Positions 1 through 14,639 of a stretch of 52,214 nt of DNA are shown piece by piece; the stretch's first letter is position 1; every line of letters starts with the position of its first letter. Source of the DNA: a virus; IMG/VR virus record IMGVR_UViG_3300031972_002079, positions 1-52,214 of that record; one strand, given 5' to 3'. The position numbers and the translations under genes were made by a program. The notes beneath the pieces are model-generated. The model saw nothing but the letters and a program-made list of their open reading frames with translations, did no database searches and had not been told where the DNA came from.

Positions 1-273
1 AATAAGCGTTGGTTGCACTTCTTTATGTTGTTTGTTCCTGTCATGGGTCTTTGGACATCTTCTATTGGCATCATTGGGCTTGCTTTTAATCTTCGTGCTT
101 ATGATTTTGTAAGTCAGGAGATTCGTGCAGCAGAAGATCCAGAATTTGAGACCTTTTACACCAAGAACATCTTATTGAATGAAGGACTACGTGCATGGTT
201 GGCACCAGTTGATCAACCACATGAGTCATTCGTATTCCCAGAAGAAGTATTGCCTCGTGGTAATGCACTTTGA
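1..273 (+). CDS. psbD: Photosystem II D2 protein, C-terminal part
   Basis: The window opens inside this gene; 90 C-terminal residues remain, read in frame from base 1. The end carries the D2 signature ([13 protein letters not shown], then [12 protein letters not shown]), nearly identical to cyanobacterial PsbD. D2 is a photosystem II reaction-centre subunit in the thylakoid membrane; the visible part holds the last membrane helix and the lumenal tail. Phage copies are thought to replace turned-over host protein and keep photosynthesis running during infection. The stop codon overlaps the start of the next small gene, so the two are probably co-transcribed. The 5' end lies outside the window. 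Confidence 0.97.
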
Positions 274-388
274 ATACGTTTTAGCATGGGTTGCACTTAT
301 CATTCTCTATTTTGTTACTCAGAATCCTGACGATGATGATGATCAAGATGGTGGTATGATGGTCCCATCGTATCAAGGAAAACAATGA
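263..388 (+). CDS. Small membrane protein downstream of psbD
   Basis: 41 aa. One hydrophobic segment (about residues 4-18, [14 protein letters not shown]) is followed by an acidic run (five Asp). I chose the ATG that overlaps the psbD stop by 11 bases, since the upstream ATG would run 84 bases further back into psbD. Its stop overlaps the next ATG (ATGA). Function unknown; position suggests expression with the photosystem gene. Confidence 0.7.
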
Positions 389-594
389 ATAATTTCGAGT
401 TCACACTATACTTCATATGCTTCGCTCTCATTGCTGGTGGTGCCTTCGCTATGATGTGGGCTAACATTCAATCTATTAAAGTAGAGATGAATAAACCCAA
501 ACCACGTCATCCAGAAGCACCACAAGCAGGTGAAGAGTTGATGTATGTAGATCTAACCAGGGAAAAACTGGAAGAAATTTATGATAAAGAATAG
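385..594 (+). CDS. Small single-span membrane protein
   Basis: 69 aa. An N-terminal transmembrane segment (about residues 6-27) precedes a charged tail with a Lys/Pro-rich stretch. The start overlaps the previous stop by 4 bases, implying translational coupling. It is last in the psbD transcript: an intrinsic terminator begins 23 bases after its stop. No recognised domain. Confidence 0.75.
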   Translation: MNNFEFTLYFICFALIAGGAFAMMWANIQSIKVEMNKPKPRHPEAPQAGEELMYVDLTREKLEEIYDKE

Positions 595-617
595 AGGATT
601 CTGAAAAGGTCAATCTT

Positions 618-647
618 AAAACCACCTCTTGACTGGGGTGGTTTTTT
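618..647 (+). terminator. Intrinsic terminator after the psbD operon, with a -35 box in its loop
   Basis: Perfect 9 bp stem AAAACCACC (618-626) / GGTGGTTTT (637-645), loop of 10, followed by a T run. The loop contains TTGACT (629-634), the -35 hexamer of the promoter described next. Confidence 0.9.
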
Positions 648-657
648 AATGTATAAT
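629..657 (+). promoter_or_regulatory. Sigma70-type promoter starting inside the terminator loop
   Basis: TTGACT (629-634), 17 bp spacer, TATAAT (652-657). It would start transcription near 664, just ahead of the carbamoyltransferase ATG at 681. The spacer holds the 3' arm of the terminator stem. Confidence 0.8.
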
Positions 658-680
658 TAAGTATACAAGTGGTTTTGTGT

Positions 681-2204
681 ATGAAATTTATAGGTCTGCG
701 ATTAGATGATCATGACTCAAATATTACATACACTGACGGCACGAAGGTTAAATATACGAACTGTGAAAGAAATTATCAATGCAAACATTATGGTCTTGAT
801 GATTTAAATACATGGACTAGTATTATTAAAAGATGGAAAGTGAATCCATCTGAGGTTGATGCGATTGCAATTATCATCGATAAATCTTTACATGGACATA
901 TACAATACAATGAAGATGATTTATTTTCTATTGTAGAATTAAAAATTTTTAGAGTTCTTGGATTTGAATGTCCTATTTACAGAGTCGATCACCATTATTC
1001 CCATGCGTTAAGCATATGGCCTTTGGGAATAAAACCAACAGTTAGTATTATTTCTGATGCGTTTGGAGATGATAGTACTAACTTCTCCGTTTTTAGGGAT
1101 GATAAAATTATTACTAGATTGAAGAGATCCAATGAAATAAGTTCTTTAGGATATAGATCTTTTGAGAGCATTGCTATGTCATTAACTTTTGTTGGCAATT
1201 TAATAAAAATTGTCGGAGATCCTTTAGATCATGCTGGTAAGATTATGGGGATGAAAGCTTATGATTCTTCAGTCTCTACTAAAAAAGACATTTTCAATTT
1301 AGAAAATATTTCAAGTGTATGGGAATCTTTTGATTGGGATTCGGTTGATATTAATGACATTAAAGATTTTGACAAAATATGTTCTTGGGTATCGAAAGCA
1401 CATACATATTCGGAGAGAGTGTATGCTGATATTTTTGTCAATTATACAGATAAAAATGACATTATATGCTATAGTGGTGGTGTAGCACAGAATACTGTGA
1501 TCAATAGTGAGATTAAAAAAGTTAGGCCCAACTTACATATTCCTCCTCACTGTAATGACTCTGGATTATCTCTAGGTGCTGTAGAGTTTCTTAGAAAATA
1601 TTATGATCAGGAAGAATTTGATACTACTGGATTTCCTTTTTGGCAGGATGATGAAGCACCAAAGACTATTCCTAGTAAAAAAACTATTAAGGATACTGCA
1701 GAAAGGTTGGCAAGAGGAGAGATCGTTGGGTGGTATCAGGGTCATGGTGAAGTTGGCCCCAGAGCATTAGGAAACAGAAGTATTTTAATGAACCCATCCA
1801 TTTCTAATGGTAAAGATTTAATCAATTCTAAAGTAAAAAATAGAGCCTTCTATAGACCCTTTGGTGCATCTGTTCTGGAAGAAAAATCTTCTCAATACTT
1901 TAACTTCTCTCACCCCTCTCCTTATATGCTTTATGTCATGGATATGATTGATACAGAATTATATCCATCAGTTACACATGCTGACGGAACTTGTAGGGCA
2001 CAGACTGTATCTCAAGATCTTGAGGTATACTATTCTCTAATTGAAGAATTTGAAATGCTTACTGGAATTCCGATGTTATTAAATACATCTTTAAATGTTG
2101 GTGGTAAACCTATTGCAGCATATAAAACTAATGCATTGGATATTTGGTGTGGCACAGAACTTGACACATTAGTATTTGGAAACGAAGTATTTTCACATGA
2201 ATGA
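681..2204 (+). CDS. Carbamoyltransferase (NodU/CmcH family)
   Basis: About 507 aa, typical for the family, which transfers a carbamoyl group from carbamoyl phosphate, through a carbamoyl-adenylate, to a hydroxyl of a small molecule or sugar. Visible: the metal-binding DHHYSHA motif (about residue 103), FGDDSTN, the GGVAQN nucleotide-binding stretch, and in the C-terminal half GWYQGHGEVGPRALGNRS and NRAFYRPFGASVL, hallmarks of NodU-type enzymes. A GTG four codons upstream (669) is possible; the ATG at 681 lies closer to a normal 5' leader for the promoter at 629-657. Common in T4-like cyanophages, but the substrate is unknown; cell-surface or virion sugar decoration is a guess. Confidence 0.93.
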   Translation: MKFIGLRLDDHDSNITYTDGTKVKYTNCERNYQCKHYGLDDLNTWTSIIKRWKVNPSEVDAIAIIIDKSLHGHIQYNEDDLFSIVELKIFRVLGFECPIYRVDHHYSHALSIWPLGIKPTVSIISDAFGDDSTNFSVFRDDKIITRLKRSNEISSLGYRSFESIAMSLTFVGNLIKIVGDPLDHAGKIMGMKAYDSSVSTKKDIFNLENISSVWESFDWDSVDINDIKDFDKICSWVSKAHTYSERVYADIFVNYTDKNDIICYSGGVAQNTVINSEIKKVRPNLHIPPHCNDSGLSLGAVEFLRKYYDQEEFDTTGFPFWQDDEAPKTIPSKKTIKDTAERLARGEIVGWYQGHGEVGPRALGNRSILMNPSISNGKDLINSKVKNRAFYRPFGASVLEEKSSQYFNFSHPSPYMLYVMDMIDTELYPSVTHADGTCRAQTVSQDLEVYYSLIEEFEMLTGIPMLLNTSLNVGGKPIAAYKTNALDIWCGTELDTLVFGNEVFSHE

Positions 2205-2223
2205 TTTTAAATAGGTATCTAAA

Positions 2224-2922
2224 ATGAAAGTAATTACAGAAGGAAAAGTCAAAACTGTATACGCAGGTGATGATGCACAGCAAGTCATCATTGAGTATCA
2301 TGACAAGGTAACAGCTGGTAACGGTGAGATGGTTGATCATCCTTTAGGAAAAGGATCCCTCTGCTGTAGTATCTCTGCTCTTATCTTTGAGAAACTTGCC
2401 AAAGAACTTATCCCAACTCATTATATTAATATGGTTGGTGCTAACAAGATGATCTGTAAGAAGGTAGACATTGTTCCACTAGAAGTTATTTGTCGCAATC
2501 GTGCTGCTGGATCTATTGTTCGTGAGACAACTCTTCAAGAAGGTTACTCACTACCCCATCCTATTGTTGAATTCTTTTTGAAGGATGATAGCAAGCATGA
2601 TCCTTTATTGACACCAGATCGTGTGCGTCTGATGGGATATGACCCTGAACCTTTTATTGAGATGACATTGCGAATCAATGATTATCTCCGTCAGATGTTC
2701 TACATCATGGGCATTGATTTGATTGACTTTAAGATTGAGTTTGGATATACTGCTCATGGTGAGTTGCTACTTGCCGATGAGATCAGTCCTGATAGCATGA
2801 GACTCTGGAAGATTGGTGGTGATGAGAGATTTGATAAAGATCTATTCAGAAAAGACGAGGGAGATATCGTTCCTGCCTATCGTTACATCCTTGACCGACT
2901 ACAACCACTTGCTATTCAATGA
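2224..2922 (+). CDS. purC: SAICAR synthetase (phosphoribosylaminoimidazole-succinocarboxamide synthase)
   Basis: 232 aa, normal length. Catalyses the ATP-dependent joining of aspartate to CAIR, giving SAICAR in purine synthesis. Family signatures seen: N-terminal EGKVKTVYAGD, GKGSLCCSISALIFEKL, the CRNRAAGSIVRE motif, and LLADEISPDSMRLW near the C-terminus. Starts 19 bases after the carbamoyltransferase; its stop overlaps the next gene. With purM downstream it supports nucleotide supply for phage DNA replication. Confidence 0.97.
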   Translation: MKVITEGKVKTVYAGDDAQQVIIEYHDKVTAGNGEMVDHPLGKGSLCCSISALIFEKLAKELIPTHYINMVGANKMICKKVDIVPLEVICRNRAAGSIVRETTLQEGYSLPHPIVEFFLKDDSKHDPLLTPDRVRLMGYDPEPFIEMTLRINDYLRQMFYIMGIDLIDFKIEFGYTAHGELLLADEISPDSMRLWKIGGDERFDKDLFRKDEGDIVPAYRYILDRLQPLAIQ

Positions 2923-3173
2923 TCATGCAAAACTTTTATCAAGCATTAGAAAACTATAAAAATGCTTATGCAATGATGGAACTAAAAGAACAATTGAAAA
3001 GAGAAATGCCTCCTAGTGGTAGTTCTTTCTATAGATATTTTTCCGATCCTAATAGTAATCCACCATCACATCATACTCTTGAAGAACGCATTGATAATAT
3101 GTCACTTGTAAAGTGTAAAGGATATGCTGTGTTTAATTATTACTATTCACAAGCTGCGTTTGCAATCCAATGA
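2919..3173 (+). CDS. Small protein of unknown function
   Basis: 84 aa, overlapping the purC stop (ATGA); a second ATG two codons on is equally possible. Soluble, with a helical N-terminus rich in Tyr, Ala and Lys. No recognised motif. The next gene overlaps its stop by 4 bases, so it belongs to the pur run. Confidence 0.65.
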   Translation: MIMQNFYQALENYKNAYAMMELKEQLKREMPPSGSSFYRYFSDPNSNPPSHHTLEERIDNMSLVKCKGYAVFNYYYSQAAFAIQ

Positions 3174-3400
3174 AACTAATTAAGTTCACCCGTGATTCTG
3201 ATTATGGACAGGATTTATATGTCCAAGTATTATTCAACAAACGATGGGCACTCTTGCAAACATCAGTACATTGGTTTGAGTGTCCTGTTTGGCCTTTTCT
3301 TCAAATTCAATCTGGTATGGGTAATCTAATTTCTATTTTGTTTAGTGTCTATAAGTTTGGATTTAATATTGGATTACTAGAACGCACTTGGAGATTTTGA
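3170..3400 (+). CDS. Small protein of unknown function
   Basis: 76 aa, with an ATGA overlap to the previous gene. Aromatic-rich with a hydrophobic C-terminal half; possibly membrane-associated. No family recognised. Confidence 0.6.
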   Translation: MKLIKFTRDSDYGQDLYVQVLFNKRWALLQTSVHWFECPVWPFLQIQSGMGNLISILFSVYKFGFNIGLLERTWRF

Positions 3401-3402
3401 TA

Positions 3403-3675
3403 ATGAAACACCACGTCCCTGATGAGATTAGAAAACTTGGTTTCGATTGCTTTAGAAGTTTGAACCAAGCAGAGCGAGCTGTTGTTATGTTTGGTGAGGA
3501 TGAGTATCGTAAATCATTAGACCTTGAGAATGATGATGCTCCCTGTTGGAAGATACCAAGTGGAGAATCAACTACCTTTGTTGGTTGGAATCCCATGTGT
3601 ATCCCAACAATGGATTACATAGTATGGAAACTAAAACGTCGTGAACAAATTGCAAAAGGAGAAATCATTGGATAA
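3403..3675 (+). CDS. Small protein of unknown function
   Basis: 90 aa from the ATG at 3403, two bases after the previous stop; a start 15 bases upstream is in frame but overlaps that gene. Soluble, mixed composition, basic C-terminus. Conserved position between purC and purM, function unknown. Confidence 0.65.
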   Translation: MKHHVPDEIRKLGFDCFRSLNQAERAVVMFGEDEYRKSLDLENDDAPCWKIPSGESTTFVGWNPMCIPTMDYIVWKLKRREQIAKGEIIG

Positions 3676-3838
3676 GTTATCTAAAGACGAGATGAGAACT
3701 AAGATTAAAGAGTTCTCTGCTATTCTTAAAAGTCAAAGAGAGCACTGGGATAAGGAAGACCAAATTGGATTCACATATTCTTGTGATCTAATCTCACAAT
3801 CACTCATTACATTATACATTCGTTTAGGAAGAGACTAA
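3668..3838 (+). CDS. Small helical protein, TTG start
   Basis: 56 aa. The TTG at 3668 is preferred: AAGGAG lies about 6 bases upstream and the overlap with the previous gene is only 8 bases; the GTG at 3641 lacks such a site. Charged and helical. Its stop shares a base with the purM ATG. Confidence 0.6.
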   Translation: MDKLSKDEMRTKIKEFSAILKSQREHWDKEDQIGFTYSCDLISQSLITLYIRLGRD

Positions 3839-4770
3839 TGGACTACAAAACTTCTGGCGTTGATATTCAAAAAGGCCGATCCTTTGTAGAATATCTTAAG
3901 GTAATGGCACCTAGTATTGGTGGGTTCAATGGAATGATGGAAGTCCCATCAGGATATGAGAAACCTGTTCTAGTAACTGGTGCTGATGGTGTTGGAACTA
4001 AAATTAATATTTGTAGGATTGCCCGTGATTACTCCACTATTGGTCAGGATCTCGTTGCTATGTGCGTCAATGACGTTATATGTTCTGGCGCTAAACCATT
4101 ATATTTTCTAGACTATATCTCTACCAAATCCCTTGACGGTAATGTGAGTGATATTGTGTATGGAGTTGTCAAGGCATGTGAGCTAACTGGAATGGATCTT
4201 CTAGGTGGAGAAACGGCAGAACATTTCAGACAAACTGATTATGACCTTGCTGGTTTCTGTACTGGTGTTGTAGAGAAGAATGATATTGTTGATGGTCAGA
4301 ATATTAGACCTGGTGATGTAGTCATTGGTATTGAGAGTAGTGGACTCCATAGTAATGGATACACACTCATCAATGATATGCTGTGGAGGCATAAGATCCG
4401 CTATAAGGACATGCCTGAGTTGCTAACACCAACTACCATCTATTCTGGTTTGATCCAACACCTGTTGGACGAAGTTCCCATCCTAGGCATGGCACACATC
4501 ACGGGAGGAGGACTGCCTGAGAACCTCCCACGATGCCTTCCAAGGGGTCTCACAGTTGACGTTGACTATTCTGCTTGGGAGAGACCAGAACTCTTTAACA
4601 AGATCCAGCAGGCAGGAGACGTTTCTGAAGAAGAGATGCGTAATGTATTCAATCTTGGTATTGGATTCTGTTTGGTTGTGCCACAAGAAGTAGCAACACT
4701 AACTCAAACTCTGATTGCTGACACACCATTTGGCATGAGATCGTGGGTTATTGGAGAAGTTAAATGCTAA
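3838..4770 (+). CDS. purM: Phosphoribosylformylglycinamidine cyclo-ligase (AIR synthetase)
   Basis: 310 aa, slightly shorter than the roughly 345 aa bacterial enzyme. Closes the imidazole ring, FGAM plus ATP to AIR, step five of purine synthesis. Signatures: SGVDIQKG at the N-terminus, VTGADGVGTKI, DLVAMCVND, the GAKPLYFLDY motif, LLGGETAE and the glycine-rich THITGGGLPENLPR-type loop near residue 220. The start overlaps the preceding stop (TAATG) and the end overlaps the next ORF by 7 bases. Confidence 0.97.
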   Translation: MDYKTSGVDIQKGRSFVEYLKVMAPSIGGFNGMMEVPSGYEKPVLVTGADGVGTKINICRIARDYSTIGQDLVAMCVNDVICSGAKPLYFLDYISTKSLDGNVSDIVYGVVKACELTGMDLLGGETAEHFRQTDYDLAGFCTGVVEKNDIVDGQNIRPGDVVIGIESSGLHSNGYTLINDMLWRHKIRYKDMPELLTPTTIYSGLIQHLLDEVPILGMAHITGGGLPENLPRCLPRGLTVDVDYSAWERPELFNKIQQAGDVSEEEMRNVFNLGIGFCLVVPQEVATLTQTLIADTPFGMRSWVIGEVKC

Positions 4771-4967
4771 CTGTCACTAACCATTTAGCCGCTTTTTGGA
4801 CTGTTGTGGTGATGAATTGTATTCATCCAGTTAATTGGCAATCATGTCTTCCAGTTCATGAATGGTTGATTCCAGATGTAGGTCAGGGATTGCAAATATA
4901 TTTTGATAAAAAGTTGGATTTTTTGTATAGAAATGAGCGAGATTACCTAGATAGTGCAGTCAAGTAA
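4764..4967 (+). CDS. Small protein of unknown function
   Basis: 67 aa, overlapping the purM 3' end. The N-terminus is weakly hydrophobic (AAFWTVVVM), suggesting membrane association. Ends 5 bases before petE. Confidence 0.6.
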   Translation: MLTVTNHLAAFWTVVVMNCIHPVNWQSCLPVHEWLIPDVGQGLQIYFDKKLDFLYRNERDYLDSAVK

Positions 4968-4972
4968 AACAT

Positions 4973-5317
4973 ATGAAAAGTTTTATTCGGTTCACTATTC
5001 TGGCATTTATTGCTGCAATGATTTTTTTCATACCCAAGACAGCATATGCATTGGATGTGCAAATGGGATCGAATGGAAATCTAGTATTTGATCCTGCAGA
5101 AGTCACTATTCAAGCTGGTGAATCTGTCCATTTTATCAACAATATGCTCCCTCCTCACAATGTAATTGTTGAGGATCATCCTGAGTTGGGTCATGATGCC
5201 CTGGCAATGTTGCCAGGTGAAGACTTTGAGGTTGCATTCCCTGAGGCAGGTGACTATACTTACTGGTGTGGTCCCCACAAAGGAGCAGGTATGATCGGAA
5301 CGGTGCATGTGGAATGA
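4973..5317 (+). CDS. petE: Plastocyanin
   Basis: 114 aa. Soluble lumenal copper protein that carries electrons from cytochrome b6f to photosystem I. Residues 1-26 form a signal peptide ending AYA, giving a mature protein of about 88 aa. All four type-1 copper ligands are visible: His62 in PPHNV, Cys99 and His102 in YWCGPHKGAGM, and Met107. Probably maintains electron flow in infected cells together with psbD. Confidence 0.97.
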   Translation: MKSFIRFTILAFIAAMIFFIPKTAYALDVQMGSNGNLVFDPAEVTIQAGESVHFINNMLPPHNVIVEDHPELGHDALAMLPGEDFEVAFPEAGDYTYWCGPHKGAGMIGTVHVE

Positions 5318-5409
5318 GTGCATTATTTGTCTTTGGATTTATTGCATTACTAACATTTGGAATGCATATAACATGGCCACTGCCATATAGAGGAGGAGGA
5401 ACAAAATGA
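5314..5409 (+). CDS. 31-aa membrane microprotein
   Basis: A short ORF with an ATGA overlap to the petE stop and a 4-base overlap to the next ATG. It is mostly one hydrophobic helix (ALFVFGFIALLTFGM). GAGGAGGA near its end serves as the ribosome-binding site of the gnd-like gene. The chained overlaps on both sides argue that it is translated. Confidence 0.6.
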   Translation: MSALFVFGFIALLTFGMHITWPLPYRGGGTK

Positions 5410-5876
5410 AAGTTGGAATTATTGGGTTGGGACGTACTGGTGAAGGTATGTCTCGCCGTATGATTGAAAAGGGAATCGAAGTTTGGGGTTACAGTAGCAC
5501 CAACTATGAAAGTGCCTGTGGACAATATGAAGCAGGATATATTAGTGGATGTGTAACCTCACTAGAGTATCTTGTCCAAGCAGTTAAATCTGACAGCAAG
5601 AAATATACTAGTGCAGGAAAAGTTCCTGGTATCTTTCAGATTACACTTCCAGAAAAAAAGGTAGAAGACACACTTGATGAGTTATTACCTTTACTTGAGG
5701 AGGGTGATATCATTATCGACTATAGTAGTAATGATGTTTCAAAATGCCAGGAACTAGAAAAGTATTGCTCTAAGTTGGGCATCTCATACATTTTCTCTGG
5801 TGTATATGGAGCACCTTATGCTATTGATTCTTGTTCTAAGATTTTTCAAGCCCTATCTCCTGGTAATGTGATCTGA
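5406..5876 (+). CDS. gnd: 6-phosphogluconate dehydrogenase-like protein, NAD(P)-binding domain only
   Basis: 156 aa. N-terminal Rossmann fold with GLGRTG (residues 7-12) as in Gnd (GLGRMG), and GDIIIDYSSND where Gnd has a DGGNS-type motif. Full-length enzymes run to about 300-480 aa and need the helical C-terminal domain, including the catalytic Lys of the GxKGTG region; that part is absent, and no other frame continues it before the next gene. It may be an inactive or regulatory form, or an uncharacterised dehydrogenase. Pentose phosphate context (talC downstream) supports a gnd origin. Confidence 0.75.
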   Translation: MKVGIIGLGRTGEGMSRRMIEKGIEVWGYSSTNYESACGQYEAGYISGCVTSLEYLVQAVKSDSKKYTSAGKVPGIFQITLPEKKVEDTLDELLPLLEEGDIIIDYSSNDVSKCQELEKYCSKLGISYIFSGVYGAPYAIDSCSKIFQALSPGNVI

Positions 5877-6061
5877 TGCCACATGAATTCGACCCATGCG
5901 AAGCACCTGTAGAAGGTAAACTTGATAAGTGGGGGTTTACAATTAAACCTACTATCAGTGATGATGAACTAATTCTTCGATGTTTGAAGAATGCACCTTG
6001 TGGGTCTGATAGAAAACAGGCAATGAAGCTAATTAAAATCTACGAGGAAAAAATTCAATGA
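5876..6061 (+). CDS. Small protein of unknown function
   Basis: 61 aa, start overlapping the gnd-like stop (TGATG). Soluble, two Cys, amphipathic C-terminal helix. No family recognised. Confidence 0.65.
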   Translation: MPHEFDPCEAPVEGKLDKWGFTIKPTISDDELILRCLKNAPCGSDRKQAMKLIKIYEEKIQ

Positions 6062-6189
6062 CCTTAGCGCATGTCCTACTTTTCGGATCACTACCCTTTA
6101 TATGTGCCACCGCATATTTCGGGTACAGAAAAGGTGAAAATGTCTACTATGAAAGTGACAAATATGACGGAAACGGAACAGCGCATTAA
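6058..6189 (+). CDS. 43-aa membrane microprotein
   Basis: ATGA overlap to the previous gene. One N-terminal hydrophobic span (LAHVLLFGSLPFICATAYF) then an acidic, Tyr-rich tail. It shares DNA with a longer ORF in another frame that starts at 6071; the overlap coupling and clear membrane span make this frame the likelier one over 6058-6189. Confidence 0.6.
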   Translation: MTLAHVLLFGSLPFICATAYFGYRKGENVYYESDKYDGNGTAH

Positions 6190-6190
6190 G

Positions 6191-6367
6191 ATGAGACATG
6201 CGTTTGCTATGTCATCATTTGCTAGAATGTTTACTCCAAACAAAATCACATATGATATGAGATCACTCTGTAGAGAGTGGTCTAAGATTGATGAACAACC
6301 ACCCACAGGTGATTTGTATAAAGTTGATCGTTATTTTCTGGAACTTTGGAAAAATAGAAACACATGA
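6191..6367 (+). CDS. Small protein of unknown function
   Basis: 58 aa from the ATG at 6191, one base after the previous stop. The reading frame is open back to 6071, but that extension overlaps the preceding microprotein. Soluble, Met/Arg-rich N-terminus. Start uncertain. Confidence 0.55.
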   Translation: MRHAFAMSSFARMFTPNKITYDMRSLCREWSKIDEQPPTGDLYKVDRYFLELWKNRNT

Positions 6368-6450
6368 ATTTAAGTCAATTAATAGTATTAATAATCCCAT
6401 TAATGTTTGGACTTGTTATATTTTTTGCAGCAGTTCTTACAGATCAATGA
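6364..6450 (+). CDS. 28-aa membrane microprotein
   Basis: Starts on an ATGA overlap, ends in overlap with the next ATG. Almost entirely one hydrophobic helix (LIVLIIPLMFGLVIFFAAV). Size and form recall the small photosystem-associated peptides, but no specific family can be named. Confidence 0.6.
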   Translation: MNLSQLIVLIIPLMFGLVIFFAAVLTDQ

Positions 6451-6608
6451 TGTTACAATTTGCTAGATTTTGTGGTGTTGTACTAAACAACCCATACGGA
6501 TTAGGATTTCTCTCAACCATTTTAGTCTTTGTTCCTATCATAGGAATGTGGGCTGTTCACAAATATAATTGGCAACATTGGGAACCTTTTGCAAAAAAAC
6601 ACCTCTAG
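6447..6608 (+). CDS. Small membrane protein
   Basis: 53 aa from the double ATG at 6447, overlapping the previous stop. One transmembrane segment (GLGFLSTILVFVPIIGMWAV) followed by a Trp/His-rich tail. Unknown function. Confidence 0.65.
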   Translation: MMLQFARFCGVVLNNPYGLGFLSTILVFVPIIGMWAVHKYNWQHWEPFAKKHL

Positions 6609-6613
6609 ATAAT

Positions 6614-6775
6614 ATGAACCTCCTTCTCCGATCACATCAAAACGTAACTGATCCAGTTTGGAGTGTTATTTTTAGTATTATCATTCTCTTAATTGGAGTC
6701 GGTTATTATGTCTATACAATTTTAAATTACGACGATGGAAAAAACAATGCCCAGGAATCAAATCACGAAAATTGA
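6614..6775 (+). CDS. Small membrane protein
   Basis: 53 aa; ATG 5 bases after the previous stop. One membrane span (VIFSIIILLIGVGYYVY) and a polar, acidic tail. Overlaps the next gene in a different frame. Confidence 0.65.
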   Translation: MNLLLRSHQNVTDPVWSVIFSIIILLIGVGYYVYTILNYDDGKNNAQESNHEN

Positions 6776-6911
6776 TATGCTCGCAAGAGTATACAAAGTC
6801 AAAACCTCTCTTTACGATGGGAAACAAATTGATAAGTCAGCTGAATGGCATGATGGTGCTCATAAAGCTTTAAATGATGTGCTTAACATCCTTGACGAAT
6901 TCAGAAACTAA
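6735..6911 (+). CDS. Small helical protein of unknown function
   Basis: 58 aa in an otherwise unexplained stretch ahead of talC. The ATG at 6735 overlaps the previous gene by 41 bases; internal ATGs at 6747 or 6777 would reduce the overlap. Predicted helical and basic, ending DVLNILDEFRN. No recognised family. Confidence 0.55.
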   Translation: MEKTMPRNQITKIDMLARVYKVKTSLYDGKQIDKSAEWHDGAHKALNDVLNILDEFRN

Positions 6912-6948
6912 TGTTAAAGTCCCTGATATGAAATATACTCACAATTAT

Positions 6949-7599
6949 ATGAAGATCTTCCTAGATACCGCTGATACTGATATCATCAACGAATACTTCA
7001 AAACTGGTTTGGTGGATGGTGTGACTACCAATCCAACATTGATCATGAAAAGTGGTCGAGATCCAGAAGATGTGTATCAAGAAATTAAAGATCTTGGTGT
7101 TCGTGACATCAGCATGGAAGTGGTTGGTGATGAGGGTGAAATGTATCGTGAAGGCAAGCGTCTTTATGAAAAATTTGGTGATGTATGCACTGTAAAAGTC
7201 CCTTGCACCCGTGAAGGACTAGCAGTCTGTAAATCACTCTCCGATCAGAACATCAAAGTCAATGTCACATTGATCTTCAGTGCCGCTCAGGCGATCTTGG
7301 CAGCAAAGGCTGGTGCAACATATGTCTCACCCTTCGTGGGACGCCTAGACGACCAATCTGTGGCAGGTCTAGAGGTCGTTCGTTCTATCTCTGAACTCTA
7401 TCGTATTCATGGTGTTCAAACTAAAGTTCTTTCAGCATCGATTCGTAGTGTTCAACGTGCTGTTCGTTCGTGGTACAATGGAGCTGACATCTGCACCATG
7501 CCACCAAAGGTATTTGATCAGATGTATGACCACATTCTTACTGATAAAGGTCTAGAGATCTTTGACAATGATTGGAAAGCGGTTCAAAACCAAAATTAA
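6949..7599 (+). CDS. talC: Transaldolase (TalC/FSA type)
   Basis: 216 aa, the short TalC form characteristic of cyanophages. Moves a dihydroxyacetone unit between sugar phosphates in the non-oxidative pentose phosphate pathway. Seen: N-terminal MKIFLDTADT, DGVTTNPTL, the Schiff-base Lys83 in TVKVPCT, NVTLIFSAAQA, and FVGRLDD. The ATG at 6949 gives the conserved N-terminus; the frame is open further upstream. Likely acts with CP12 and the gnd-like gene to favour pentose phosphate and NADPH production. Confidence 0.96.
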   Translation: MKIFLDTADTDIINEYFKTGLVDGVTTNPTLIMKSGRDPEDVYQEIKDLGVRDISMEVVGDEGEMYREGKRLYEKFGDVCTVKVPCTREGLAVCKSLSDQNIKVNVTLIFSAAQAILAAKAGATYVSPFVGRLDDQSVAGLEVVRSISELYRIHGVQTKVLSASIRSVQRAVRSWYNGADICTMPPKVFDQMYDHILTDKGLEIFDNDWKAVQNQN

Positions 7600-7666
7600 C
7601 TTTTTAATTCCATATATCGGGACAAAAATTTCCCAGGCTTTTTTCGTTCTATAGGATTTTTTAAAA

Positions 7667-7852
7667 ATGGCACAAGGATTTGATGTAGATGGTGTAGAGG
7701 TTGAGATTCCTGTTCAAGACATGAGTCGTCTTATCAAAAGATATAAGAAATTGAAAAAGTATGAGAAGTCAACTCTACATACCATTCAAAAACTGAATGG
7801 TGATAGAACTATCATTGACAAATTGACTGAAGAATCTGAAAATTTTGAATAA
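7667..7852 (+). CDS. Small charged protein of unknown function
   Basis: 61 aa, standing alone after a 67-base gap behind talC. Lys/Glu-rich, helical. Ends two bases before the strong promoter at 7854. Confidence 0.65.
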   Translation: MAQGFDVDGVEVEIPVQDMSRLIKRYKKLKKYEKSTLHTIQKLNGDRTIIDKLTEESENFE

Positions 7853-7853
7853 C

Positions 7854-7882
7854 TTGACTAAATACGGTATGGGGTCTATAAT
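7854..7882 (+). promoter_or_regulatory. Sigma70-type promoter ahead of the structured RNA
   Basis: TTGACT (7854-7859), 17 bp spacer, TATAAT (7877-7882). Expected start near 7889, at the first stem of the riboswitch-like element. Confidence 0.88.
7858..7864 (+). promoter_or_regulatory. Possible late promoter CTAAATA overlapping the -35 box
   Basis: Matches the CTAAATA box found before structural genes in this window, and shares two bases with the early -35. If used, the same leader RNA would be made early and late. Confidence 0.45.
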
Positions 7883-7890
7883 AGACCTGT

Positions 7891-7944
7891 CGTTCATCTC
7901 CTAATCAGGAGACGCAAGTAAGTCGCGGAACGGAGCGTTCATCC
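7891..7944 (+). ncRNA. Riboswitch-like leader (Downstream-peptide / glutamine-II class)
   Basis: Between the promoter and a 66-aa gene lies a compact fold: CGTTC (7891-7895) pairs with GAACG (7928-7932), and inside it TCTCC (7897-7901) pairs with GGAGA (7908-7912), with a conserved-looking ACGCAAGTAAG joining stretch. A second CGTTC (7936-7940) can compete for the same GAACG next to the start codon, giving an on/off switch. Stem layout, joining sequence and location before a short ORF match my recollection of the Downstream-peptide motif of marine cyanobacteria and their phages, related to the glnA glutamine aptamer. Ligand not proven. Confidence 0.7.
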
Positions 7945-7945
7945 C

Positions 7946-8146
7946 ATGAAATTACTTCTACCTTTATTACTTCTAGCTTCTCCCATATATGCTGGCGAGT
8001 ATGTTATGCCTTGTCAACATGTAAAAGAAGTTGCAGAAGTCGTATTGGAGGATCCTTACCTTTCTGAAAGGGACAAAAAGATTATTCTTAAAAACCTTTT
8101 AGGTAGACATGGTATGGGTTGTCTTTCAAGGGACGCAAACGACTAA
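7946..8146 (+). CDS. Small secreted protein under the riboswitch-like leader
   Basis: 66 aa. A clear signal peptide (residues 1-16, KLLLPLLLLASPIYA then G) with an AxA-type cleavage site precedes a charged mature part with two Cys, implying periplasmic or lumenal location. The start lies directly after the switchable stem, consistent with translational control. No family name recognised. Confidence 0.75.
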   Translation: MKLLLPLLLLASPIYAGEYVMPCQHVKEVAEVVLEDPYLSERDKKIILKNLLGRHGMGCLSRDAND

Positions 8147-8186
8147 AGGAACGGGCCTAAAAATCCAACTACTTTAGGAGTTCAAC

Positions 8187-8354
8187 ATGAACACACTTAA
8201 TCTAATCAGAAAGCAGATCAACAAAGCATCTGCTCTTCATGACGCACAGATCACTCACACCGCATATCGTGGTGTCGAGTATTCTACTCGTTGTGTAGAA
8301 TCAAAAGATACTCATGGTACATTCTGCTACCGTGGTCGTCTTTACACCAAGTGA
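8187..8354 (+). CDS. YRG-motif small protein (DUF4278-like)
   Basis: 55 aa, preceded by a good site (AGGAG, 6 bases before ATG). Two copies of an aromatic-Arg-Gly motif, AYRGVEY and CYRGRLY, 21 residues apart match the DUF4278 pattern of cyanobacteria and cyanophages. Function unknown. Followed by a strong terminator. Confidence 0.75.
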   Translation: MNTLNLIRKQINKASALHDAQITHTAYRGVEYSTRCVESKDTHGTFCYRGRLYTK

Positions 8355-8373
8355 TTAACGTAAGTTAAAGAAG

Positions 8374-8399
8374 AGCGGGGTTGCGGCCCCGCTTTTTTT
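8374..8399 (+). terminator. Intrinsic terminator with a -35-like loop
   Basis: AGCGGGG (8374-8380), loop TTGCGG (8381-8386), CCCCGCT (8387-8393), then seven T in a row counting the last stem base. Ends the riboswitch-controlled transcript. Confidence 0.93.
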
Positions 8400-8409
8400 A
8401 TGGTATGAT
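8381..8409 (+). promoter_or_regulatory. Promoter whose -35 box is the terminator loop
   Basis: TTGCGG (exactly the hairpin loop), 17 bp spacer, TATGAT (8404-8409). Fits the same layout as the element at 618-657. Weaker match to consensus. Confidence 0.6.
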
Positions 8410-8431
8410 ACGTGGGAACGTCAGACATGCC

Positions 8432-8653
8432 ATGGACCAAGTTCAGATTTGGAAAGAGAGGTATGATGCTCTCACCCGATGGGTCGAGGAGAATATGCCA
8501 GAGAAAGATCCTAAACTCTGCAAATGTACACCTGGAGCACTAGAATCAGTGCATCTTGGAAGGATTAAATACTTAGAAGCACAGATTGAAAAATACGAAC
8601 AAGAAATTTCAATTCTCAAAATGTACCTAGAGGCCCGTGGCTATGACAACTGA
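8432..8653 (+). CDS. Small coiled-coil protein of unknown function
   Basis: 73 aa from the ATG at 8432. The frame is open back through the terminator, and an ATG at 8405 exists, but it lies inside the -10 box of the promoter at 8381-8409, so the later start is favoured. Contains CKC and a Glu/Lys-rich C-terminal helix likely to form a coiled coil. Overlaps the next gene by 11 bases. Confidence 0.65.
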   Translation: MDQVQIWKERYDALTRWVEENMPEKDPKLCKCTPGALESVHLGRIKYLEAQIEKYEQEISILKMYLEARGYDN

Positions 8654-8825
8654 TCAACTTCGTGACATCCTGATATCAGATGTTGAAGAGTTTTATTGCT
8701 CAAGATCAACTTATCTTATGGATTATGATCTAAGATATCTTGACTGCCTCTTTGAGGAATTTGTTGTAGATGGTGAAGAACCTGATGAATGGTTGTTTAT
8801 GAACGATATGACAAATGTCTCATAA
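8643..8825 (+). CDS. Small acidic protein of unknown function
   Basis: 60 aa; ATG at 8643 (GTG at 8637 also in frame). Strongly acidic, Tyr- and Asp-rich. Overlaps genes on both sides, as expected in a compact phage operon. Confidence 0.65.
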   Translation: MTTDQLRDILISDVEEFYCSRSTYLMDYDLRYLDCLFEEFVVDGEEPDEWLFMNDMTNVS

Positions 8826-9006
8826 ATTTAAAGTAGGAATGTGGGCTTGTTACCGCAAAAATACTGGTGTCATTGATTTTATAGATACTGCGTACATTAG
8901 AATCAAACTACCAGCAGCGCCAAATAGAGGTAACCCACTTCTTTTGGTTTATCCTTGCTATTGGAAGGAAGTTGAAATTTTAGATGATATTAAAAAAGGA
9001 ATTTGA
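8815..9006 (+). CDS. Small protein of unknown function
   Basis: 63 aa. Looks like a small beta-barrel (SH3-like spacing: FKVGMWACYRKNTGVIDFI, then YIRIKL). No family claimed. Starts within the previous gene and ends 1 base before the glutaredoxin ATG. Confidence 0.65.
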   Translation: MSHKFKVGMWACYRKNTGVIDFIDTAYIRIKLPAAPNRGNPLLLVYPCYWKEVEILDDIKKGI

Positions 9007-9007
9007 T

Positions 9008-9244
9008 ATGACCTTTATCGTTTATTCAAAAGAAAACTGTCCACATTGCTCAAAACTCAAGCAAGTTATGGACTTGACAGAACAAAAGCATGTGATCTAT
9101 ACTCTTGGTACAGATTTCACTCCAGAGGAATTTTATGAAAAATTTGGTGAGGGTAAAACCTTTCCGCAAGTAGTTATTGATGGACAAACTATTGGAGGCT
9201 GCAGTGAAACACTCAAATACTTCCGAGAGCAGAGGATCCTCTGA
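9008..9244 (+). CDS. nrdC: Glutaredoxin
   Basis: 78 aa, the length of a minimal glutaredoxin. Active site CPHC (residues 11-14), the cis-Pro stretch KTFPQVVI and the glutathione-binding GGCSE near the C-terminus are all present. Reduces ribonucleotide reductase and other disulfides with glutathione. I chose the ATG at 9008, which gives the classical beta-strand MTFIVYSKENCP start. Confidence 0.93.
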   Translation: MTFIVYSKENCPHCSKLKQVMDLTEQKHVIYTLGTDFTPEEFYEKFGEGKTFPQVVIDGQTIGGCSETLKYFREQRIL

Positions 9245-9395
9245 TCTACCACTAAATAGAGGCGTAGAACTAATCCTCAACGGAGTCAAAAACCCAAAGC
9301 AATTACTTGATCTGAACCTTAACCAAAGATTTAGATTGTTCAAAAGACAAATTTCAATTAGTTTTGCATTTTCTTTTGACATAAAAAAACCATAA
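9204..9395 (+). CDS. Small protein of unknown function, GTG start
   Basis: 63 aa. GTG at 9204 is preceded by GGAGG at 6 bases, inside the 3' end of the glutaredoxin gene, a good internal ribosome-binding site. Polar N-terminus (Ser-rich), then a Leu/Arg/Phe-rich helix. A CTAAATA sequence (9252-9258) falls within it. Confidence 0.65.
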   Translation: MKHSNTSESRGSSDLPLNRGVELILNGVKNPKQLLDLNLNQRFRLFKRQISISFAFSFDIKKP

Positions 9396-9412
9396 AGTCT
9401 AAGAGAGGAATT

Positions 9413-9634
9413 ATGTTAGCAGTCTCACTTGTTTTAGGAACATTCATCTTAATAGGTGCCTTTCTTACAGGATTTATTTTTGGATGGATTATAAGAGAAA
9501 ATGTTATATCATTTAATATTCCTCAGGGTCTACATCCAGAAATGTATGACGAACAAGGTGGCATTCTTCCAGATCAATTAATTGCATTTCGATTTGAAAA
9601 TGGATTTGAAGACGAAGAAGAAGAAATCGACTAA
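9413..9634 (+). CDS. Small membrane protein
   Basis: 73 aa with a good AGAGGA site upstream. One N-terminal transmembrane helix (residues about 3-26) then an acidic tail ending EDEEEEID. Unknown function. Confidence 0.75.
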   Translation: MLAVSLVLGTFILIGAFLTGFIFGWIIRENVISFNIPQGLHPEMYDEQGGILPDQLIAFRFENGFEDEEEEID

Positions 9635-9649
9635 AAATGGAGTTTAATT

Positions 9650-10102
9650 ATGGCTAAAAAATTACCACCAAACCCGCTACAATCTGAAATTTTACAAGCT
9701 GTATCAAGCGCAAAAACTAAAGCAGCAAAAGTGGAACTTCTTAAGGAGTATCGCAACCCTGCCTTAGTTTCTTTGCTTATCTGGAATTTTGATGAATCCA
9801 TCAAGAGTTCTGTTCCAGAAGGTAAAGTACCCTATACCGAAAATGATAAACCTATTGGTGATGGTATTTCTCGTCTTGCCAGTAATCAAAGAATGTTTTA
9901 TAATTTTGTAGAGGGAGGAAATGTAGATCTCACTCGCACTAGACGTGAGGCACTTTTCATTGAATTGCTTGAATCTCTTCACAAAGAAGAAGCAGAGTTA
10001 CTGTGTTTAGTAAAGGATAAAAACATTGGAAGCAAATACAGAGTTACAAGAAACGTTATTGCCGAAGCCTATGAGGACATCCAGTGGGGAAATAGAACCT
10101 AA
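9650..10102 (+). CDS. DUF6433-like phage protein
   Basis: 150 aa. Pattern SEILQAVSSAKTKAAKVELL, PALVSLLIWNFD, PEGKVPY, NFVEGGN and a C-terminal LLESLHKEEAELLCLVKDK match my memory of DUF6433, a family frequent in T4-like phages of marine bacteria. No proven role; spacing among replication genes suggests DNA metabolism or host takeover. Confidence 0.75.
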   Translation: MAKKLPPNPLQSEILQAVSSAKTKAAKVELLKEYRNPALVSLLIWNFDESIKSSVPEGKVPYTENDKPIGDGISRLASNQRMFYNFVEGGNVDLTRTRREALFIELLESLHKEEAELLCLVKDKNIGSKYRVTRNVIAEAYEDIQWGNRT

Positions 10103-10103
10103 T

Positions 10104-10409
10104 ATGTCTTGGACTGATGAAGAAAAGTCTCTAACTAAAAAGAGATATGGATGTACAATTCTACAAACTAATTGTGATCCATCTGCTGCAAACGACAAGA
10201 CCCTTCCTACAGATTCGTTTTTAGTAGAGTTTCGAGTTGATGGTCAATCATACTATGATATCACCAGGACTCAAAAAGAGACTAAACTTTTTGATATGTA
10301 CTATGATAAGTTCGGAAAAGAATTTGTAAAATTTTCTTGGACAAAGGGAACTATCAAGCCAAAACTTTGGGGTTACAAACCTGTCGAGGAAAAGAAGAAA
10401 AAACGCTGA
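10104..10409 (+). CDS. Conserved phage protein of unknown function
   Basis: 101 aa from ATG 10104, one base after the previous stop. Mixed alpha/beta, with a Lys-rich C-terminus (EEKKKKR) that could bind nucleic acid. No domain recognised. Confidence 0.7.
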   Translation: MSWTDEEKSLTKKRYGCTILQTNCDPSAANDKTLPTDSFLVEFRVDGQSYYDITRTQKETKLFDMYYDKFGKEFVKFSWTKGTIKPKLWGYKPVEEKKKKR

Positions 10410-10421
10410 AGATGTGCTAAG

Positions 10422-10601
10422 ATGTATGAGGAACTGAATGACTTTGAGGAAGCCCTCAAACACTTTGGAACAAGAGTTGAGATCATCACTGCTATGGAAA
10501 TGGCAAAGAAACTATCACCTGAAGATGCCTATCAGATGATTAAGGATGAGCTCAAAGAAGTAAAAAAATGTCGTAAACGTTTCAAGAATGAATCATGTTA
10601 A
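10422..10601 (+). CDS. Small helical protein before thyX
   Basis: 59 aa, Glu/Lys-rich and almost fully helical (MYEELNDFEEALKHFG, then KLSPEDAYQMIKDELKEVKK). Its end overlaps the thyX start by 14 bases. Clear coding pattern though short; function unknown. Confidence 0.7.
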   Translation: MYEELNDFEEALKHFGTRVEIITAMEMAKKLSPEDAYQMIKDELKEVKKCRKRFKNESC

Positions 10602-11238
10602 ACTGATCTCTGTTACTCCTGATGCAGAGAAAAATATTGCGTATTGTGCCCGTGTAAGCAACCCCAACAATCAAGAGAACGAAAAGATCGCTGGTCTTCT
10701 CAAATACTGCATCAATCATAAGCACTGGAGTATTTTTGAACAAGCATATATGACCCTTGAGATCAGTACGACCAGGGGACTTGCGGCTCAAATTTTGCGA
10801 CATAGGAGTTTCACATTCCAAGAGTTTTCTCAACGGTATGCTGATAGTTCTATGTTAGCAACTAAGATTCCTCTTCCAGACTTACGTCGTCAGGATAAAA
10901 AGAATCGTCAAAACTCTACTGATGATTTGGATGCGTTCCATAAGCAAGAGTTTGAGATTGCTATTGAGAGACATTTTGCTTCTGCTATGGATCTATATCA
11001 AACTATGCTTGATCATGGCGTGGCAAAGGAATGTGCTCGTTTTGTGCTTCCTTTGGCCGTACCCACAAAAATTTACATGAGTGGCTCAATTCGCTCATGG
11101 ATACATTATATCGATCTGAGATCCGCTAATGGTACTCAGAAAGAACATATGGATATTGCCAAAGAGTGTATGTGTGTTTTTGCAGGAGAATTTCCTGTAA
11201 TATCTGAAGCACTTGGATGGACAAATCATAGTGAATGA
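10588..11238 (+). CDS. thyX: Flavin-dependent thymidylate synthase
   Basis: 216 aa. Makes dTMP from dUMP using methylene-tetrahydrofolate, FAD and NADPH. The ThyX signature RHRxxSxxxxSxR-type motif appears as RHRSFTFQEFSQRY (about residue 70), with the supporting C-terminal SGSIRSWIHYIDLR. Typical of T4-like cyanophages. Start overlaps the preceding small gene. Confidence 0.96.
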   Translation: MNHVKLISVTPDAEKNIAYCARVSNPNNQENEKIAGLLKYCINHKHWSIFEQAYMTLEISTTRGLAAQILRHRSFTFQEFSQRYADSSMLATKIPLPDLRRQDKKNRQNSTDDLDAFHKQEFEIAIERHFASAMDLYQTMLDHGVAKECARFVLPLAVPTKIYMSGSIRSWIHYIDLRSANGTQKEHMDIAKECMCVFAGEFPVISEALGWTNHSE

Positions 11239-11722
11239 GTCCATTTATCTTAAGAATAATTTTTTCAGTGATGATGAGTGTGATTTTCTAATTTCTTACT
11301 ATAAGGACAGAGAATCTTCATCTCATTACTATGAATGTAATCAGACACATACTCTAACGATACTTTCAAGTGATGAGAACAATATTGATGATGCACTGAG
11401 ACCATTTTACGATAAAATTCAGAATATAATCACAAAAATAGAAGGACCAAACCTTTATATTAATGTTTCTGAAATTGTAAAATGGTTATCAGGTTCATCA
11501 GTGATGAAGCCCCATCTTGATAGAAAAGAAGATCTATTTGGAGTCATCATTTATTTGAATGATGACTTTCTTGGTGGAAAAACTTACTTTAAAAATGGCA
11601 TCATGATAAGTCCAAAGAAAGGTAGTATTCTTCTTTTTACTGGAAACAAAATTGAGCATGGTGTGACACCAGCAATAAACGGTGATAGACTTACAATAAC
11701 TTGTTGGATTAGATCCAAATAA
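11231..11722 (+). CDS. 2OG-Fe(II) oxygenase
   Basis: 163 aa from GTG 11231 (a TTG at 11213 is in frame but extends further into thyX). Double-stranded beta-helix with the iron triad: HLD in MKPHLDRKEDL, distal His in KIEHGV, and 2-oxoglutarate-binding Arg in DRLTITCWIRS. Family members hydroxylate proteins, nucleic acids or small molecules; the substrate here is unknown. One of five such genes in the window. Confidence 0.85.
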   Translation: MNESIYLKNNFFSDDECDFLISYYKDRESSSHYYECNQTHTLTILSSDENNIDDALRPFYDKIQNIITKIEGPNLYINVSEIVKWLSGSSVMKPHLDRKEDLFGVIIYLNDDFLGGKTYFKNGIMISPKKGSILLFTGNKIEHGVTPAINGDRLTITCWIRSK

Positions 11723-11725
11723 CGT

Positions 11726-11732
11726 CTAAATA
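11726..11732 (+). promoter_or_regulatory. Late promoter motif CTAAATA
   Basis: Lies 22 bases before the next ATG, in a true intergenic gap. Same box as before gp26-like, fibre and minus-strand structural genes. Confidence 0.65.
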
Positions 11733-11753
11733 ATTGAGTTGGGATTTTAATTT

Positions 11754-12002
11754 ATGGCAACATATCCAGTTGTCCACCTTAAAACAGGTGAGACAAAAGA
11801 AGTGATAATGAGTATACATGAATGGGACCAGTGGAGAACAGATAATCCTGATTGGTCAAGAGATTATTCAGATCCTACCACCTGCCCTGGTGTTGGGGAA
11901 GTTGGTGAGTGGCGCAACAAATTAGTTGCTAAAAAGCCAGGTTGGAATGAAGTGCTTCACAGAGCATCGAAGATGCCTGGTTCAAACGTCAAAAAAATCT
12001 AG
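11754..12002 (+). CDS. FmdB-like small protein lacking the zinc ribbon
   Basis: 82 aa. The pattern TGETKEVIMSIHEWDQWRTDNP, PGVGEVGEW, then W-EVLHRASKMPGS follows the C-terminal part of the phage 'FmdB-type regulatory' proteins, but the usual Cys pairs are not present (a single Cys). Role unknown; may act in late functions given the promoter ahead. Confidence 0.7.
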   Translation: MATYPVVHLKTGETKEVIMSIHEWDQWRTDNPDWSRDYSDPTTCPGVGEVGEWRNKLVAKKPGWNEVLHRASKMPGSNVKKI

Positions 12003-12015
12003 TAAACCTCAACCT

Positions 12016-12777
12016 ATGCCTGCAAAAAAGAGAAAGAACTCAGCTCATCAACCAGTTGGTGCTGGTCTCACTGCCAAGCAGATGAAGCGCAAAAAACCTA
12101 TCAACTCAGACTTGATGGTTGACATTAATCCGCTCACAGATAATCAGAAGAAATTTTTCGATGCCTACAGTGAAGGAAAACAACTAGTTGCATATGGATG
12201 TGCTGGAACTGGTAAAACGTTCATTGCTCTTTACAATGCACTCGCAGATGTTCTAAACGAAGTTACACCATATGAAAAAGTGTATGTTGTTCGTTCTCTA
12301 GTTGCAACCAGAGAGATTGGTTTCTTGCCAGGAGATCATGAAGATAAGTCTTCTCTTTACCAGATTCCTTATAAGAATATGGTAAAATATATGTTCGAGA
12401 TGCCTACAGACACAGATTTTGAAATGCTGTATGGCAATCTCAAAGCTCAGGAAACTGTAAGTTTCTGGAGTACATCTTTTATTCGTGGTACTACTTTTGA
12501 TAATGCAATTCTCATCATTGACGAATTTCAGAATCTAAACTTTCACGAACTGGACTCTATCATTACTCGCGTTGGTGAAAATAGTAAGATTATCTTCTGT
12601 GGCGATGCCACTCAAACTGATCTTACTAAAACTAATGAGAAAAATGGGATCGTTGACTTTATGAGTATTCTCAGAAAGATGCCATCATTTGATCTTGTAG
12701 AATTTGGTGTTGACGATATTGTAAGATCTGGTATCGTCAAAGAATATTTACTTGCTAAACTTGACTCTAATTTGTAA
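12016..12777 (+). CDS. phoH: PhoH-like ATPase
   Basis: 253 aa. Walker A GCAGTGKT (residues 61-68) and Walker B ILIIDEFQN near residue 170 with flanking PhoH features (VRSLVATREIGFLPGD, GDATQTD). PhoH-type NTPases are very common in marine phages; role may be RNA metabolism, and a link to phosphate stress is debated. The basic N-terminus is Lys-rich. The frame is open upstream, but the ATG at 12016 avoids a long overlap. Confidence 0.93.
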   Translation: MPAKKRKNSAHQPVGAGLTAKQMKRKKPINSDLMVDINPLTDNQKKFFDAYSEGKQLVAYGCAGTGKTFIALYNALADVLNEVTPYEKVYVVRSLVATREIGFLPGDHEDKSSLYQIPYKNMVKYMFEMPTDTDFEMLYGNLKAQETVSFWSTSFIRGTTFDNAILIIDEFQNLNFHELDSIITRVGENSKIIFCGDATQTDLTKTNEKNGIVDFMSILRKMPSFDLVEFGVDDIVRSGIVKEYLLAKLDSNL

Positions 12778-13433: not shown

Positions 13434-13677
13434 ATTAAAAAAAGAGTTAGAAAAAAAATTCATTACTTCTGAAAAATTCTGCCAAGAAATTGAACAGATT
13501 GTTCTTAATCAAAAGATTAATTACATCGATGCAATCGTATTCTTTTGTGAGAAGAATAGTATTGAAGTTGATACAATTTCAAAACTAATTACCAAACCAC
13601 TAAAAGAAAAATTAAAGTGGGATGCTATTAGACTTAATTTTATGAAGAAAACATCGAAGGCTAAATTGCCTATTTAA
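13423..13677 (+). CDS. 33: Late transcription coactivator gp33
   Basis: 84 aa. In T4, gp33 bridges RNA polymerase, the gp55 late sigma and the gp45 clamp. Pattern FCQEIEQIVLNQKINYIDAI, IEVDTISKLITKPLKEKL and a terminal AKLPI fits the cyanophage gp33 (Trans_coact) family. Overlaps the nuclease 3' end by 11 bases. Its presence agrees with the CTAAATA boxes upstream of virion genes. Confidence 0.85.
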   Translation: MKNELKKELEKKFITSEKFCQEIEQIVLNQKINYIDAIVFFCEKNSIEVDTISKLITKPLKEKLKWDAIRLNFMKKTSKAKLPI

Positions 13678-13678
13678 A

Positions 13679-14263: not shown

Positions 14264-14267
14264 TAAA

Positions 14268-14597: not shown

Positions 14598-14615
14598 CTC
14601 AACCCATCCTATAAT
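14587..14615 (+). promoter_or_regulatory. Consensus sigma70-type promoter for gp32
   Basis: TTGACA (14587-14592), 17 bp, TATAAT (14610-14615): both hexamers perfect. Start expected near 14622, 18 bases ahead of the gp32 ATG. Confidence 0.9.
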
Positions 14616-14639
14616 CTAAACGTACACAAGCCAAATCCA

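Follow-up and report, generated by a model that had tools for sequence, protein, structure and literature searches.

Candidate composite terminator-promoter elements in T4-like cyanophages

Introduction

Can a single short stretch of intergenic DNA close one phage transcript and open the next? The question is raised by three sites in a viral record of 52,214 bases, a T4-like cyanophage fragment that was analysed over its whole length and is called the window below. An initial annotation had described these sites as stop-and-restart elements, in each of which the loop of an intrinsic terminator hairpin doubles as the −35 box of a promoter whose −10 box follows 17, 17 or 16 bp further on. We put the probability at roughly 0.8 that the sites are composite terminator-promoter elements, with the hairpin apex serving as the −35 of the next promoter. 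The composite is supported by sequence, folding, enrichment, a requirement for both promoter boxes and co-occurrence at one locus; that transcripts actually terminate and initiate at these sites we infer from their sequence.

Three sites in the window

All three sites lie on the plus strand, and their positions and spacings (17, 17 and 16 bp) were borne out on the sequence. At site 1, the terminator (622–647) consists of the arms CCACCTC (622–628) and GGGGTGG (635–641) around a loop at 629–634, followed by a T-tract at 642–647. The loop reads TTGACT, which matches TTGACA at five of six positions, and a perfect TATAAT (652–657), immediately preceded by TG, follows at a spacer of 17. Gaps are short here: the hairpin begins less than 30 nt past the stop codon, and 23 nt separate the −10 box from the ATG at 681 of a Nol/NodU-type carbamoyltransferase gene (681–2204, plus strand). 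In relatives of site 1, the apex reads TTCACA (L002) or TTGACA (L004).

The site 2 terminator (8375–8399) has the hairpin GCGGGG(T)..(G)CCCCGC at 8375–8392 and a T-tract at 8393–8399. Its loop hexamer, TTGCGG (8381–8386), matches TTGACA at only three of six positions and is replaced by TTGAGG in the orthologues L693, L699 and L703. The extended −10 TGGTATGAT (8401–8409) contains the box TATGAT (8404–8409) at a spacer of 17, and the ATG of a small plus-strand ORF without assigned function (8432–8653) lies 22 nt past the −10, at 8432. The site 3 terminator (40523–40547) combines the hairpin GGGGCCC(TT)..GGGCCCC (40523–40543) with a short T-tract (40544–40547); its loop hexamer TTCACA (40530–40535) matches at five of six positions, and the extended −10 TGCTATAAT (40549–40557) carries TATAAT (40552–40557) at a spacer of 16. 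The downstream gene (40580–41758, plus strand), with its ATG at 40580 and thus 22 nt past the −10, encodes a DEAD/ResIII-type DNA helicase that is UvsW-like by resemblance.

At each site a GC-rich hairpin leads directly into a T-tract, as in an intrinsic terminator, with folding energies of −15.7, −18.6 and −18.8 kcal/mol (z = −4.4, −4.4 and −2.6) for sites 1, 2 and 3. Sites 1 and 3 fit the sigma-70 layout (−35, 16–18 bp, −10) with 11 of 12 box positions each; site 2 fits it only if its extended −10 is taken into account, and a TGn precedes the −10 at both sites 2 and 3. The arms of the three hairpins are unrelated in sequence, and an Rfam search returned no family at sites 1–3, with tRNA as the only match elsewhere. 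Two neighbouring tRNA genes, for Ile (anticodon tat) and Met (cat), were seen at 30241–30388. The annotation had singled out site 2 as the case in which loop and hexamer coincide exactly; this is so if only Watson-Crick pairs are counted, but if one G-T pair is allowed, it is also so at site 1. The site 3 loop comprises TTCACAG at most.

A purpose-built finder (hairpin plus T-tract, with the reversed sequence as decoy) returned six candidates on the plus strand of the window, four of them credible and intergenic (622, 8375, 38813 and 40523), and reversed-sequence decoys were far fewer than real terminator candidates. A −10 box with at least five of six matches lies 6–12 nt past the hairpin in three of these four terminators, and at a background rate of 0.0077 per nt the three instances are unlikely to have arisen by chance (P about 6 × 10−4, or 0.0026 with all six candidates counted), as the annotation had supposed. 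The remaining credible candidate, a strong hairpin with T-tract at 38813–38847, was seen inside a mechanically listed ORF (38766–39245); the gene of this ORF probably starts at the ATG at 38865, which would make the hairpin intergenic. It lies about 90 nt past a 12/12 promoter near 38701–38729. Near-perfect promoters of the form TTGACN-17-TATAAT, all lacking a hairpin, were seen at 7854–7882, 14587–14615 and 38701–38729, so this phage has two or more promoter layouts, the composite among them.

The proposed element

In the proposed composite, the GC-rich hairpin and T-tract would end the upstream transcript, and the next gene would be read from a sigma-70 promoter of host type on the same DNA. 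Its −35 would be the apex, ideally TTGACN; its 16–18 bp spacer would be made up of the 3′ arm, the T-tract and TGn; and TATAAT would come next, about 22 nt before the start codon. The element sequences fit sigma-70. A minimal terminator can hold an apex −35 at no cost in length, because a 7-nt arm, 6–8 T and 3–4 nt amount to 17 bp. Host polymerase would stop in the T-tract, and free holoenzyme would take that duplex as promoter. In a tightly packed genome that is read mostly one way, each element would, we infer, insulate its gene from upstream read-through and would also give that gene a start of its own.

Promoter position and the packing of the genome

Simple compaction, a reading that we hold at about even odds, would explain the same arrangement by packing: stop and start overlap without any functional link, and the −35 falls in the loop for no other reason than that a terminator constrains its loop bases least. 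The short gaps at site 1 favour it. Compaction also predicts promoters just past the T-tract, and the position of promoters was followed in 455 terminators from related loci and six named cyanophages. Promoters with both boxes number about 6.7 per nt at offsets 6–12 and 0–0.6 beyond 13, and promoters lying wholly past the terminator gave no peak at offsets 29–53 in the same set. Where a promoter in these genomes comes close after a terminator, the two thus overlap, which speaks against packing as stated, although this rival concerns purpose rather than anatomy. The start codon also keeps a near-constant distance from the −10, with a median of 22 nt to the ATG in 59 viral composites.

Comparison of the same locus across phages bears on this reading as well. 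The site 2 locus was followed as the gap after a conserved 55-residue gene (phrog_545) in 80 viral contigs and the window, and a terminator-like hairpin is found in 75 of the 81 gaps. In some of these gaps the terminator stands by itself, lacking a −10 and with loops that include TTAAC, TTTAT and GAAA, as compaction would allow; others have an apex of TTGACA, TTGACT or TTGACG together with a −10, mostly at 17 bp. When the gaps were grouped into 30 clusters, the apex matched at five or more positions in 10 of 14 clusters with a −10 versus 1 of 16 without (p = 4 × 10−4, phylogeny ignored). At the helicase locus of site 3, the −10 is kept in 49 of 53 non-redundant contigs and an extended −10, mostly TGCTATAAT, in 37, but a −35 with at least four of six matches occurs in only 9 of the 53, and the hairpins have many unrelated sequences. 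The conserved part of this locus is the extended −10 (TGnTATAAT), not the loop hexamer. Hairpins thus turn over at fixed positions, and at the helicase locus, where the −10 stays constant, this turnover is again what compaction would lead one to expect.

A reversed order was also seen. Before the carbamoyltransferase gene in L006–L013, L015, L016 and L018–L020, and after the 55-residue gene in L687, L701, L717 and others, the −10 comes first and the hairpin with T-tract second. In that order the hairpin falls at about the site of initiation and immediately ahead of the start codon, so a terminator-like hairpin would form the 5′ end of the new RNA.

Possible polymerase retention at the release point

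A functional link, which we consider possible but on the unlikely side, is that polymerase stays on the DNA after release in the T-tract, rebinds sigma and restarts at the overlapping promoter, or briefly occludes it. After intrinsic termination, bacterial RNA polymerase mostly remains bound to the DNA and can reinitiate nearby (PMC6978380), and coupling of post-termination polymerase to nearby sense promoters has been suggested (PMC6978322); such single-molecule work on retention and nearby reinitiation favours a relay, as does the fact that the elements put the following promoter where the RNA would be released. Reinitiation is, however, a minority event in the published system (type 1 traces, 0.09; PMC6978380). 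This recycling offers a biochemical path by which polymerase leaving a terminator could reach a promoter close by; it is a general behaviour of the enzyme, unlike the composites, which are a sequence element. If polymerase does restart nearby after intrinsic termination, the composites would be efficient relays. An extension of the idea, which we hold to be rather more doubtful still, is a transcription relay across Kyanoviridae, in which terminating polymerase is retained and handed to the overlapping promoter, so that the output of one gene would set initiation at the next and host polymerase would be spread along the genome. The elements offer natural templates for asking whether polymerase recycling, known mainly in vitro so far, serves a living system.

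Loop hexamer, extended −10 and the need for both boxes

Does the loop hexamer matter, or does the extended −10 suffice and the −35 match in the loop arise incidentally? As a general account the latter strikes us as unlikely, and it can be weighed against the composite in a non-redundant set of 324 terminators drawn from 3.3 Mb of related loci. The −10 peaks 8–12 nt past the hairpin, and a TGn-extended −10 follows 45 of the 324 terminators compared with 4.6 ± 2.0 in shuffles, an excess that favours the extended −10 acting by itself. The apex adds to this. Among the 95 terminators with a −10, the hexamer at spacer 17 matches TTGACA at four or more positions in 37% and at five or more in 26%, whereas hexamers with at least four matches make up 0–2% at spacers 10–15 and 18–20 and 7% at 16. 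A second, weak rise of TTGACA-like hexamers, up to 17%, occurs further upstream, at spacers 30–31. In terminators without a −10, the apex figures fall to 8% (at least four matches) and 5% (at least five). Both the confinement of the match to spacer 17, with little at 16, and its far weaker form in terminators without a −10 argue against an incidental loop sequence. In contigs fetched whole or nearly whole, joint cases numbered 15 versus 6.0 after permuting the downstream sequences, and none of 2000 permutations reached 15. The annotation had made its case depend on enrichment over shuffled sequence, and in the cyanomyovirus terminators this enrichment is present against both shuffled and permuted controls.

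Enrichment was not uniform among genomes. Cases with an apex −35 were absent from Syn9, T4, Syn5 and several contigs, RB49 had one only, and RB49, T4, Aeh1 and the T7-like Syn5 gave no clear enrichment of the composite. An exact pattern of long T-tract plus extended −10 was so strict that it told little about single genomes, and it was dropped. Pairing counts at a fixed shift over pattern matches yielded no clean covariation, because loop size varies.

The need for both boxes was assessed with the pattern TTGACN-N7-TTTTTT-N4-TATAAT, which was scanned in 2.9 million viral contigs and gave at least 120 matches; across the whole collection, a scrambled −35 gave 27 matches and a scrambled −10 gave 60. 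The constancy of TTGAC and TATAAT is set by the pattern itself and was left out as evidence. Among the matches listed, a GC-rich hairpin is present in 53 of 107 non-redundant viral cases with both boxes, compared with 1 of 20 when the −35 is scrambled (p = 1 × 10−4) and none of 35 when the −10 is scrambled (p = 6 × 10−9). Hairpins are thus all but lost once either box is scrambled, which speaks against an extended −10 acting alone. In bacterial genomes the hairpin occurs in 3 of 119 among the matches listed, mostly Clostridia, and in none of 15 pattern matches from 292 genomes of the phylum Cyanobacteria. The nearest references of 54–55 of the 61 hairpin-bearing viral contigs, among the matches listed, are Kyanoviridae. 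The cyanomyovirus S-CAM4 also carries the element, with a match at 183481–183509. The viral composites listed precede 20 gene families, although 27 of 59 precede a single family and the count therefore overstates the independence of the cases. In L261, L273, L310 and L348, a composite precedes a small gene whose product resembles, by eye, a high-light-inducible, photosynthesis-related protein; the small gene of L348 had no Pfam match.

Taken site by site, an extended −10 without need of the loop hexamer likely describes site 3, where TGCTATAAT is conserved at the helicase locus without a −35, and perhaps site 2, but not site 1. The stop-and-restart composite came through the genome-wide, scrambled-pattern and same-locus tests as a class; as to the loop as −35, site 1 (5/6) upholds the annotation, and site 2 (3/6, a weak match) and site 3 (a hexamer that is not conserved at its locus) do not. 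Site 1 is the only clear case, and the extended −10 seems to count for more than the loop hexamer at the other two. We accordingly distinguish two grades of composite, one with the −35 in the loop (site 1) and one with an extended −10 and a freely varying loop hexamer (site 3, and probably site 2).

A chance overlap of motifs common in AT-rich DNA is very improbable: a generic promoter scan of positions 1–18000 of the window found no excess (61 versus 66.4 in shuffles), as chance would have it, but every enrichment test run contradicts this reading for the class, if not for any single site. The generic scan had missed the plus-strand terminator of site 2, because its T-tract pairs with upstream A's.

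Relation to known elements

The composite concept is already known. PeSLs (promoter-early stem-loops) have been published for T4-like phages as conserved composite motifs that combine promoter and terminator (Arbiol 2010, 10.1093/gbe/evq006; Comeau 2014, 10.1093/gbe/evu129), and a paper on the cyanophage S-PM2 considers PeSLs and judges them sparse there. The annotation knew of no description in cyanophages; that remark has to be qualified in view of the published concept and its discussion for S-PM2, and a hexamer centred on the loop between unrelated arms is what sets the cyanophage elements apart. As in PeSLs, terminator stem-loop and promoter share one short intergenic element in a T4-like myovirus, the group in which the window is placed by its matches to cyanomyoviruses of three types, S-CAM, S-T4 and ACG-2014. 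The PeSL trait of many near-identical copies per genome, at which recombination could take place, was not found in these phages, which have few cases per genome and unrelated arms.

KVP40 carries the repeats GGGTTGAC[TACG]GTCAACCC-tttcttg-TATTAT and GGGTTGC[TTCG]GCAACCC-tttttgcg-TATTAT, in both of which a −35-like hexamer (TTGACT or TTGCTT) spans the 5′ arm and the loop and TATTAT follows at a spacer of 17–18. The KVP40 repeats are presumably the published PeSLs. Their copies share one sequence and the arm tends to supply the −35, whereas each cyanophage element has arms of its own and a hexamer that centres on the loop; a hexamer across arm and loop with TATTAT 17–18 bp on nevertheless indicates a design principle common to both. 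Near-identical copies of GGGTTGAC[NNNN]GTCARCCC-tttcttg-TATTAT were seen in KVP40 AY283928.2 (for example L485:5855, L486:190 and L487:1373).

In Kayvirus, another large myovirus, the early promoter p98 lies directly past the terminator t97, with RNA-seq support (PMC7698491); the relevant part of that paper reports the two as adjacent, describes no −35 in the loop and has late transcripts reading through. Predicted sigma-70 promoters and TransTermHP terminators flank genes in 16 cyanophages (Sullivan 2010, PMC3037559), and the portion of that study bearing on them does not describe overlap or a loop −35. The composites amount to a countable sequence element, found in T4-like phages that infect marine cyanobacteria, whose bases would serve termination and initiation alike. 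Prediction of promoters and terminators in these genomes should change, since separate predictors miss or split such composites.

A dyad-like box upstream of the hairpins

A dyad-like box, roughly TGCCARTT-N4-AACTGKCACA, was seen immediately 5′ of many of these hairpins. Its core CTGNCM occurs at 20 of 86 terminators with a −10 versus 4 of 237 without. The motif ACTG[TG]CAC at 36–40 nt before a −10 (often TGCTATAAT) was found in 86 non-redundant cases from 58 sources, among them the cyanomyovirus loci L210:14971 (minus strand), L088:7401 (plus) and L107:4200 (plus), and in 12 of 12 cyanophage-type genomes scanned; at this spacing it was absent from RB49, T4, KVP40 and Aeh1, which were scanned likewise. 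Because the box also occurs without hairpins, it counts as an independent promoter element, perhaps a candidate activator site for a promoter class without a −35. The 2016 Syn9 transcriptome study by Doron reportedly describes a novel element controlling early genes, and we presume that the dyad-like box may be the same element. In the window, a degenerate copy of the box lies near 40505–40521.
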